64,000 bases of DNA. It comes from Thermogemmata fonticola. GTDB taxonomy: Bacteria; Planctomycetota; Planctomycetia; Gemmatales; Gemmataceae. Made by a program: the position numbers and the translations under genes. The number at the start of each line of letters is the position of its first letter. The first letter of the stretch is position 1. The notes under the pieces were generated by a model, which made no database searches, was not told where the DNA came from, and saw only the letters and a list, made by a program, of their open reading frames with translations. This document shows positions 4,239 through 9,569 of this stretch, piece by piece. The stretch lies in assembly GCF_013694095.1 (NCBI RefSeq), contig NZ_JACEFB010000013.1:1-64000 (forward strand), read 5' to 3'.

Positions 4239-7200
4239 TCAGAAGGCGTGCTGAATGCCGAACCAGATTTGCCACGGCGTTGCGGCATTGAGGGTCTTGG
4301 CCACATCCAGGCGCAATAAGGCCCGTTCGATGAAACTGAAGACGGCCAGATCGAGGCGCAAGCCCACCCCAAGAGCGTGAGCCACATTCCCGATTCGCCG
4401 CCCATCGACGTAAATGGCTCCCACATCATAAAAGGTGGCAAGCCACAAGTTGCGGCCCCCGAAGATATGATCCAGAATATCCCACTCCACCTCTCGGACC
4501 AAGGGCAGGCGTAGCTCGACATTGGCTACCCAAGCCGCGCTGCCTTGCCGTTCAGCTAGATCGAAGCCGCGGAACAACGTTCCCCCGCCCAGTGCGAAGA
4601 AACGCCCTTCATCGGGGAAGGCACCGAGCAAGACCAGGCGTGTGGCGAACCGGGTGTGTCCCAGGGGTCCCCAATCGTCACGCCCCAAAGAGCGCACGGC
4701 GGCCAATTCCAGGCGTCCTTGAGTCGTGCCGCGCCAGCCTTGAACATCGGCCGAACCGCCCCCTGCGAGCAGGTCCACCCAGATACCGCCCTCTGGGTCC
4801 CAATAGGGAGTGTACATGTTCCACCGGTAATGATAGCCACCCAGGATCATATGATTCCAACGGATGCCATCCGAAGAACGTGAATAAGGGAGGAAGTTAT
4901 CCTGATAAGTTGTAAATACTTCCTGATACATCATGGGAGGTAAATAGAGACTGGAAGTGGGCAGAAGGACGTGGCGAACATAAAGCACGCCGCGATGGGG
5001 GCCGCCTGCTCCGGCGAGCCGATCCCAAGGTGCGACGACTTGGTCGCGGAGCCGTCCCCACGGTCCGGCAATCCGCCACTCCCAATTCCCGCCGATTTGC
5101 CAGTGATTTCCAAGAACTGCGGCATCGGCACCGAGAACGACATCCTGAAAATCCGAGCGGTAGGCCAAATAGGTACCGGCTTGGTAGTGCTCTGGGCGGT
5201 TCAGGCCAGCCCGCAGCCCGACCATCGTCGTACGCGTGTACCACGGATCATTGTAGGATGGTCCCCACACCCATGGGCCAATAATAATGTTGAGACGATC
5301 GTAATTCATTGTGAAGTTGGTCTCGTCCAATATCGTGTAAAGTGGTGTGAGGCGAATGTGCGGTTGGGATTTCCACACATTATTTGCTGGCTCGGCATCG
5401 AGCAGCACGCGATCCGGGTCCAGGACGGCTTGTACCGGAGCGGAAGGGGCCAAAATCTCCACCTGCCAGCGCTTATCTCCCAGGTAATGGACAGTCGCTT
5501 GACATTCCGGGAGCTGGATCGGCTCGGTGGTAAAACCGACGGGGATGCGGTGTTGAGAGCCGTCGGCGAAGAGCACCGCGAGGAGCGTGGGTTCGGTGAT
5601 CTCCCGATTTTGCCGGACGATGATGCGCACGGGCGGATGGGCACTCGTTCGAGGCCGAAAAATCCGCGGTATAGCCGCCGGGTGCTCAACGCCCTCAATC
5701 TGCCAGTCGGTCAGTTCCGTGCCGTAGACCCAGCGCTGGAAGAACTCGCCCCAGTCCCGGCCCGTGTATTGTTCCAGCTCCCGCCGCAGGTCCCGCACTT
5801 GAAGAATGCGCCAGCGATATTTGAGGGCCAAGTGTCGGATGAAGTCGTGGAAGGCCGGCTCGCCCAGGCGGGCTTCGATCATGCTGAAGACTTTCGAGCC
5901 GCGGTCGTAGGCGCCGGTGAATAGGCCGAACAGATTCTCGTAAGCAGGCAAGTTTTGGGCCGCCGGGTGCATCTCGCCATTACGGATGGCATAGTACAGT
6001 CCGCTGTAGCGGTAGTTTTCCCGGTGGATATTCGGCAGCCAGCGGAACCCCCGCGGCCATTCCAGCATCGGATTATTCCGGCCATGCTTGTGATCGAGCA
6101 AGCGGTGGGTGAAGTGCACCGCCGCCCCCTCATCCATAAATGGTTCTGCGTAACCGTTGGTGCCGATCAGGTTATACCACCACTGGTGGCAGGTCTCGTG
6201 AGAAACCAGGTATTCGACGTATCCGCGGGCCAGATGCGGCATGGCGAAAACCCGCTCATCGATCATGATCAGCCCTGCACATTCGTTGCCATTCCAGCCG
6301 AAGTAGGACTCCACAATCGTGAACTGGTCATATGGGTAATCCCCAAACCAGCGGGAAAAGATGGGCAGGGCTTCGGCGGCGATACGGAGGATTTCTAAGG
6401 CGTAAAATTCGTGCTCCGGGAAGGCATAGCAGCGCAGTTGCACGGTGCGCCCCGATGGGAGGGCCGTTGTGGCGGTGAATTCCCGAAAGCGGCGTGAGCA
6501 GAGGATGGCAAAATCCCGGCCGACGAACGGATGGAGGTGGACACGGCGGCGGCCATCGCCGAGCCGCTCGTCCCGCAGCACAGACGCTGGGACGGCCAGG
6601 ACTTCTTCCTCCGGCAATGTGATCGTGGCGTGAAAGATGCCCGCTTCGTTGAACCACGGTTGATGCCAGGGGACAAACGGCATCGGCTTCCAGCCATCGC
6701 TGTCGCAGTAAGCTAGGAGCGGCAGGGCGTTGGTCAAATAGGCCACCCCTTTCCAGTGACCCAAGCGCCCCTGTTTGTTCGGCAGATAATACGAGCAGTG
6801 GAGAACGACCGTGACTGACTCGCCCGGTGCGAGGGGGCGGGGGAGGAACACCCGCAGAGCTGTCACATTATCGGCATCGAAGCGGAAAGAGAGAGGTTGA
6901 TCATAGACGTCCTTGCCCTGTTGCAGGAGCCGCACGGATTGGACGACGCCAAAGCGCCCGCAGCGGTCGATTCCCAGTGATGGTTGCAAGCGGAGCATCT
7001 CCAGCGTCTTGGCCAAATGGATATAGTCTCCCTGGGGGACGCGATAGTGCGGATAGAAATTGAATGCCAGATGATCGAGGGGGAAGGGGGTGGTGTTGCT
7101 CCACGTCACGTGCAGGGTCAGTTGGGCCGTGTGCTTGTGGGTATCCAGAACGAGATCGAAGCGATAACGGGGGAGATGAGCGGGCAGAGGCGGCGAGGCG

Positions 7201-7370
7201 GACGCGGGGGCCTTTTCTTCGGCTGACAAGGCCTGTTTTGGGGCCAACAGGCAGGGGTAGAAGGCGGGCGATAGCCAAGCCGCGAAGGAGCCAAGGAAGA
7301 TAGCCAGCCAGCCCCACCGTTTACCGCAAACATTGCGGGATGACCCGGTGTCCGGCGTCAGCCAACGCAT
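4239..7370 (-). CDS. M1-type zinc metallopeptidase fused to an Omp85-like outer-membrane barrel
   Basis: About 1043 residues from the ATG at 7370, which puts a hydrophobic export segment near the N-terminus; the reading frame is open to 7493. The N-terminal two-thirds resembles M1 aminopeptidases. The zinc site H-E-T-C-H is at residues 391-395, with the third ligand Glu in DEGAA 19 residues later. The usual GAMEN exopeptidase motif is replaced by NGNECAGL. The last third (about residues 700-1043) is rich in alternating aromatic beta-strands, contains GGGTLFRGF, which resembles the Omp85 RGF/Y loop motif, and ends in Phe, as proteins assembled by BAM often do. This suggests a peptidase anchored in the outer membrane through its own barrel. 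It lies downstream of the Trm112-like gene. The peptidase call is firm; the barrel is inferred. Confidence 0.82.
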   Translation of the reverse strand: MRWLTPDTGSSRNVCGKRWGWLAIFLGSFAAWLSPAFYPCLLAPKQALSAEEKAPASASPPLPAHLPRYRFDLVLDTHKHTAQLTLHVTWSNTTPFPLDHLAFNFYPHYRVPQGDYIHLAKTLEMLRLQPSLGIDRCGRFGVVQSVRLLQQGKDVYDQPLSFRFDADNVTALRVFLPRPLAPGESVTVVLHCSYYLPNKQGRLGHWKGVAYLTNALPLLAYCDSDGWKPMPFVPWHQPWFNEAGIFHATITLPEEEVLAVPASVLRDERLGDGRRRVHLHPFVGRDFAILCSRRFREFTATTALPSGRTVQLRCYAFPEHEFYALEILRIAAEALPIFSRWFGDYPYDQFTIVESYFGWNGNECAGLIMIDERVFAMPHLARGYVEYLVSHETCHQWWYNLIGTNGYAEPFMDEGAAVHFTHRLLDHKHGRNNPMLEWPRGFRWLPNIHRENYRYSGLYYAIRNGEMHPAAQNLPAYENLFGLFTGAYDRGSKVFSMIEARLGEPAFHDFIRHLALKYRWRILQVRDLRRELEQYTGRDWGEFFQRWVYGTELTDWQIEGVEHPAAIPRIFRPRTSAHPPVRIIVRQNREITEPTLLAVLFADGSQHRIPVGFTTEPIQLPECQATVHYLGDKRWQVEILAPSAPVQAVLDPDRVLLDAEPANNVWKSQPHIRLTPLYTILDETNFTMNYDRLNIIIGPWVWGPSYNDPWYTRTTMVGLRAGLNRPEHYQAGTYLAYRSDFQDVVLGADAAVLGNHWQIGGNWEWRIAGPWGRLRDQVVAPWDRLAGAGGPHRGVLYVRHVLLPTSSLYLPPMMYQEVFTTYQDNFLPYSRSSDGIRWNHMILGGYHYRWNMYTPYWDPEGGIWVDLLAGGGSADVQGWRGTTQGRLELAAVRSLGRDDWGPLGHTRFATRLVLLGAFPDEGRFFALGGGTLFRGFDLAERQGSAAWVANVELRLPLVREVEWDILDHIFGGRNLWLATFYDVGAIYVDGRRIGNVAHALGVGLRLDLAVFSFIERALLRLDVAKTLNAATPWQIWFGIQHAF

Positions 7371-7615
7371 ATCTGTTCCCGCAGGAGGCATAGTACCAGG
7401 GTCTCGGGGGTTCAGGTCCGAGGCACCGTGTGGTTCCGAGAGTTTTCCCCCGGCGGAGGGCATAGCAAGGGTGCATCGCCAATGCCAGAGCAATTGCGGG
7501 AAGCGCTGCTAAGAACAGGGGAGGGACCCGATAGGTCACGCGAGGAAAGGGGGGTAGACGGTTATCCGACGGGCCGGCGGATGGGGAGGATGACGGGGAA
7601 AGAGGCACGTTACAT

Positions 7616-8061: not shown

Positions 8062-9569
<1,508 letters not shown>

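Follow-up and report, generated by a model that had tools for sequence, protein, structure and literature searches.

A predicted M1 zinc peptidase joined to an Omp85-type barrel in Thermogemmata fonticola and other Planctomycetia

The window analysed here, a 64,000-nucleotide stretch of the Thermogemmata fonticola genome, encodes a protein of 1043 aa in which a peptidase of the M1 family is followed by a C-terminal barrel of the Omp85 type. The initial annotation, made from the sequence alone, had located this gene correctly; the plus strand of the interval is full of stops and the open reading frame lies on the minus strand, where an in-frame TTG at 7493 offers an alternative start that would add 41 aa to the protein. 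A complete 16S rRNA gene is found just upstream on the same strand (8062–9569), and nothing else in the window, 23S and 5S included, matches Rfam above cut-off. The lone 16S gene would fit an unlinked arrangement of rRNA genes in planctomycetes. The fusion gene and its parts are as follows.

4239..7370, minus strand (read 7370 to 4239): M1-Omp85 fusion gene, 1043 aa; ATG at 7370, full-length homologues
7221..7370, minus strand: probable Sec signal peptide, residues 1–50; basic N-region, hydrophobic stretch LAIFLGSFAAWLSPA, ALSA-EE
6420..7175, minus strand: M1 domain I (beta), residues 66–317; AlphaFold2 strands, Foldseek matches to ERAP/IRAP/APN
5706..6419, minus strand: M1 catalytic domain II (thermolysin-like), residues 318–555; Pfam PF01433 at 330–547, AlphaFold2 helices
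6279..6293, minus strand: NGNEC (360–364) at the GAMEN position, Glu363 kept; phmmer alignment, Glu in 68/69
6186..6200, minus strand: HETCH zinc motif (391–395); sequence and homologue alignment
6129..6131, minus strand: Glu414, third zinc ligand at x18 spacing; 69/69
5907..5909, minus strand: Tyr488 in YDRGS, position of the M1 transition-state Tyr; 69/69
5421..5705, minus strand: M1 domain III beta-sandwich, residues 556–650; AlphaFold2 strands, 501–595 of the model
5292..5420, minus strand: conserved linker DPDxxLLD..NNxW..TPLYT.LDET, residues 651–693; alignment, Pfam, AlphaFold2
4242..5291, minus strand: predicted 16-strand Omp85-type barrel, residues 694–1043; AlphaFold2 models, Foldseek
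4791..4811, minus strand: TPYWDPE (854–860), long, highly conserved periplasmic-side turn between strands 8 and 9; alignment and AlphaFold2 position
4539..4616, minus strand: loop 6 (919–944), LGGGTLFRGF, with the invariant Arg934 that is an Omp85 hallmark; 69/69, hhalign to the BamA RGF
4242..4244, minus strand: C-terminal Phe1043, end of a BAM-type beta-signal; Phe in 68/68 homologues

Residues 1–50, whose hydropathy peaks at 1.61, are probably a Sec signal peptide. The catalytic domain matches Peptidase_M1 (residues 330–547) with a score of 57.6 bits, where 27.7 is the cut-off, and the zinc site HExxHx18E is intact, as had been noticed at the outset, being formed by H391, E392, H395 and E414 and accompanied by Tyr488. 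All five residues are present in each of the 69 sequences of our alignment (the window protein and its homologues), although the complete conservation of HExxH in the all-species set is biased because this motif was part of the search pattern; E414 and Y488 lay outside it. Domains I–III of the full model match the ERAP/IRAP/APN fold with E about 1e-23 (Foldseek). The protein thus carries all the core features of the M1 family and is filed there, and on the strength of its conserved residues the peptidase is very probably catalytically active. It is the only M1 gene found in the T. fonticola genome.

Two departures from typical M1 enzymes might bear on substrate choice. The GAMEN motif had been described as missing, and most of it has indeed changed, but in the phmmer alignment with puromycin-sensitive aminopeptidase its place is taken by NGNEC, which keeps the functional Glu (E363, retained in 68 of the 69 sequences). 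The altered substrate choice that had been deduced from the loss of GAMEN is therefore weakly argued, since the Glu is retained, and the absence of the helical domain IV is the bigger change. This domain occurs in four-domain M1 members rather than in all of the family and does not define it. In the AlphaFold2 model the chain passes from the beta-sandwich straight to the barrel, which occupies the place of domain IV, and an active site lacking that domain may be open to larger substrates.

The model, built from the alignment of 69 sequences and spanning 988 residues, has a mean pLDDT of 92.3 and a pTM of 0.90; the latter indicates that peptidase and barrel have a defined mutual placement. After M1 domains I, II and III come the conserved linker and then exactly 16 barrel strands, a number obtained again when the barrel was folded alone (mean pLDDT 89.8). 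The initial annotation had expected 12–16 strands, and the C-terminal third is indeed predicted with high confidence to be a barrel, not a soluble beta-sandwich. GGGTLFRGF (928–936) and the terminal Phe were likewise recognised correctly, and the RGF motif falls between strands 11 and 12, in the sixth outer loop, as in loop 6 of BamA. Most outer-side loops are short; the periplasmic side has several long, conserved turns, above all TPYWDPE, in which P855, Y856 and W857 are invariant in the homologue alignment and which, from its position in the model, may contact the peptidase.

Foldseek comparison of the barrel with the PDB returned almost only BamA, TamA, FhaC and CdiB, the top 28 matches all being BamA, TamA or FhaC and a porin appearing at rank 29. 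Profile matches of the window protein alone are weak: 13.6 bits to Pfam Omp85 PF01103 at 925–1028, below the cut-off of 24 (a cut-off exceeded in 15 full-length homologues), and 30 bits to NCBIfam NF047779 Omp85_fam at 922–1043 (E 3.6e-7, cut-off 200). Alignment of profiles by hhalign paired the barrel with those of planctomycete BamA proteins (96.5%, E 1e-9, RGF aligned on RGF) and, better still, with PD40-Omp85 barrels (98.8%, E 1e-16). The covalent union of an M1 peptidase with an Omp85-type barrel, the principal claim of the initial annotation, is supported. No POTRA domain was found by Pfam or in the AlphaFold2 model. What defines the superfamily is the barrel, and some of its subfamilies are non-POTRA (PMC4104836); with a predicted Omp85 barrel and no POTRA domain, the window protein is classed as a non-POTRA Omp85. 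A tblastn search of plasmids gave no match to the barrel alone, and to the whole protein no match beyond M1 relatives, none of which spans more than 57% of the query.

The fusion is not peculiar to T. fonticola. Among 59 related genomes searched at the protein level, most of those from the same family and order have it, as do genomes of other families in the class, in single frames of about 1000–1100 aa; altogether about 95 genomes carry it full-length in single frames, complete assemblies, for example those of Limnoglobus roseus and Singulisphaera acidiphila, among them. Of 170 relatives in an all-species scan, the best 80, of which 68 could be used as complete genes, all appear to be planctomycetes. 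Public metagenome-assembled genome records at five loci (L055, L084, L100, L114, L115), one named Bacteroidales and a few Candidatus Kuenenia, hold Gemmatales- or Planctomycetia-like genes; these labels look wrong. The barrel profile was detected in 102 of 398 genomes of class Planctomycetia: 63 of 68 in the window's own family (Gemmataceae), which bears out the prospect of finding the fusion in relatives of Gemmata, all 5 of the sister family, with the remainder spread over a small number of other families. Roughly three quarters of the sampled Planctomycetia therefore do without the fusion, which cannot be generally essential; carriers usually have one copy.

Nearly all matches to the barrel profile sit in frames of peptidase length. 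The short-frame exceptions examined lie at contig ends or contain an artefact, except in G686, where the N-terminal part continues in another frame. An apparently split gene in G558 (L212, 3640–3662) was rejected as a natural split, the in-frame stop lying inside a loxP-like sequence; we take this sequence to be part of the 454 paired-end linker, probably left in the assembly. In the genomes sampled from the rest of the phylum, the matches were weak and C-terminal throughout (E 2e-12 or worse), those examined being PD40-Omp85, BamA-like and TpsB-like proteins and one short Omp85 protein. The nearest M1 relatives checked beyond the class lack such a barrel.

A tree of 49 proteins follows taxonomy, with families separated as expected. 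The fusion is thus old and vertically inherited, and on this tree it probably dates back to the common ancestor of the carrier families, with later losses. Against an orthologue of 79% identity the gene has a pN of 0.135 and a pS of 0.76; by domain, pN is 0.124 for the peptidase and 0.104 for the barrel (pS about 0.76), so that the constraint on the barrel is no weaker than that on the enzyme. There is no conserved gene neighbourhood overall, no neighbour being common beyond close relatives. In one lineage an HtrA-like trypsin and PDZ gene lies upstream on the opposite strand (L071, L074, L082, L085, L117), and in one lineage a secretin-domain protein of about 1790 aa lies directly downstream on the same strand (L075, L079, L083, L084, L090, L098 and two more loci).

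Searches without HExxH in the pattern revealed copies that have lost the zinc site. Four genomes of one genus (G017, G534, G580, G593) each have two fusion copies, one with HExCH and one with QATCH (L205, L207, L209, L211). The QATCH copies form one clade with mutual identities of 73–94%, and their pN/pS of roughly 0.1–0.3, also inside the peptidase domain, indicates that they are kept under purifying selection. In L037 (G036) the zinc motif is replaced by VVEQVAQQ, giving at least two independent losses. Since dead copies have been retained, part of the function of the fusion seems not to need zinc. The retention of a dead paralogue is reminiscent of the dual roles reported for BepA (PMC8423444). 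Genera with pairs of live and zinc-dead copies provide natural controls.

The two ends of an Omp85 barrel lie in the periplasm, as do the N-terminal domains of Omp85 proteins. In PlpD, the one enzyme-Omp85 fusion for which a study was found, the enzyme domain has been shown to be periplasmic (PMC11116518). On these two grounds we locate the peptidase beneath the outer membrane; by this analogy and by the model it very probably faces the periplasm, and of the earlier wording, 'on or under' the outer membrane, the first alternative appears unlikely and the second apt. We propose that the fusion protein would be exported by Sec and its C-terminal barrel inserted into the outer membrane by BAM, leaving the three-domain M1 peptidase, in which the barrel replaces helical domain IV, on the periplasmic side. 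There it would cut or trim failed outer-membrane or periplasmic polypeptides, together with peptides reaching the mouth of the barrel. Our preferred reading, held with reasonable though far from complete confidence, is that the protein is an outer-membrane-anchored periplasmic zinc peptidase, most likely engaged in envelope housekeeping. Its presence, usually as one copy, in 63 of 68 genomes of the family and 5 of 5 of the sister family speaks for such a role, as do its standing as the sole M1 gene found in the T. fonticola genome and, within the one lineage to which it is confined, the HtrA-like neighbour (5 loci).

It is difficult to separate such quality control from a role in nutrition. 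The barrel might serve chiefly as an anchor, perhaps as a pore, while the M1 domain trims incoming periplasmic peptides to amino acids for uptake, a reading to which we give roughly one chance in three in our own estimation. M1 enzymes are mostly aminopeptidases, the GAMEN Glu is kept, and the fusion is the sole M1 gene found in the genome, all of which would suit peptide scavenging. However, the barrel is conserved like the enzyme, whereas a mere anchor would tolerate drift, zinc-dead copies are retained, and no transporter is conserved among the neighbours. Its usual occurrence as one copy, its vertical inheritance, the constraint on its barrel and the retention of dead copies incline us weakly towards clean-up, to which by itself we would give slightly less than an even chance, over feeding.

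A further reading, which we regard as unlikely, is that the barrel itself folds other outer-membrane proteins or inserts them, and that those that stall are removed by the M1 domain, making a covalent analogue of BamA and BepA. If this were true, insertase and editor would be united in one polypeptide, the zinc-dead copies would be chaperone-only versions, and the outer membrane would, to our knowledge, have its first example of a covalent protease-insertase. Loop 6 with its invariant Arg934, the 16 strands, a fold nearest to BamA and TamA, the strong constraint on the barrel and the precedent of BepA (PMC8423444) are in keeping with it, but POTRA domains are absent, the genome has its own BamA, the extracellular loops are mostly short and there is no sign of lateral opening.

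Display of the peptidase on the cell surface, with the barrel as exporter, had been suggested in the initial annotation and recalls the older model in which the PlpD enzyme is exported to the surface (as cited in the main text of PMC4104836). We set it aside as quite improbable on Omp85 topology and the demonstrated location of the PlpD enzyme; moreover the pTM of 0.90 suggests that the peptidase is folded and docked against the barrel and is not a passenger, and the long, conserved turns are on the periplasmic side, the extracellular loops being mostly short. That the fusion is an assembly artefact, frameshift or pseudogene is scarcely credible, for although the genome is a draft of 61 contigs, the same gene occurs in single frames in about 95 genomes, complete ones among them, and is under purifying selection.

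The envelope peptidase proposed here resembles several known systems in part. M1 aminopeptidases (ERAP, APN, PSA) share domains I–III, HExxHx18E, the Tyr and the GAMEN Glu, but differ in having GAMEN where the fusion has NGNEC and domain IV where it has a barrel. BamA and TamA share the barrel fold with 16 strands, the RGF of loop 6 and the C-terminal aromatic residue; they differ in carrying POTRA domains and are only about 10–15% identical to the fusion barrel in fold alignments. BepA of E. coli may offer a functional analogy, and only that, as a metallopeptidase of the periplasm that works at an Omp85 barrel; it is a separate M48 protein with TPR, from another peptidase family. One further known group is named for PF00149, which we take to be the calcineurin-like phosphoesterase family. 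This 'Metallo' subfamily (Heinz and Lithgow 2014), called a metalloprotease in the main text of PMC4104836, is also a non-POTRA enzyme-Omp85 fusion but is without an M1 domain.

By profile, the closest barrel in the phylum is that of the WD40(PD40)-Omp85 proteins (Heinz and Lithgow 2014). At least one member, L185 (1498–4437, G199), resembles the fusion in having an N-terminal Peptidase_MA-like domain with HEFTH intact, but these proteins have a beta-propeller in between, the peptidase domain is different and smaller, and most of those examined lack HExxH. L184 and L186–L190 are PD40-propeller Omp85 proteins in which HEFTH is missing, and some of L184–L190 have an N-terminal Peptidase_MA-like region. 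L185 suggests that clan-MA-type peptidases may have been attached to Omp85 barrels more than once, or that these barrels may share an ancestor. The closest architecture is that of PlpD and the patatin-Omp85 proteins (type Vd; PMC11116518 and the main text of PMC4104836), in which a periplasmic enzyme precedes an Omp85 barrel of 16 strands, although PlpD is a patatin lipase with one POTRA and the fusion an M1 peptidase with none. Heinz and Lithgow (PMC4104836) recognise ten Omp85 subfamilies, their N-terminal sets being POTRA, patatin, WD40, PF00149, lipoprotein or none; no subfamily described there carries M1, the main text has no word beginning with 'peptidase' and no mention of planctomycetes, and the N-terminal domain of the fusion, M1 only by Pfam, matches none of these sets. 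No report of M1- or aminopeptidase-Omp85 fusions, in general or in planctomycetes, was found in the open-licence literature, and the fusion looks like a peptidase-bearing non-POTRA subfamily not described there. It would add such a subfamily to a superfamily in which the members without POTRA domains have hardly been studied, bears on how planctomycetes handle their unusual envelope, and is a clean system for the behaviour of an Omp85 barrel in which an enzyme replaces the POTRA domains.
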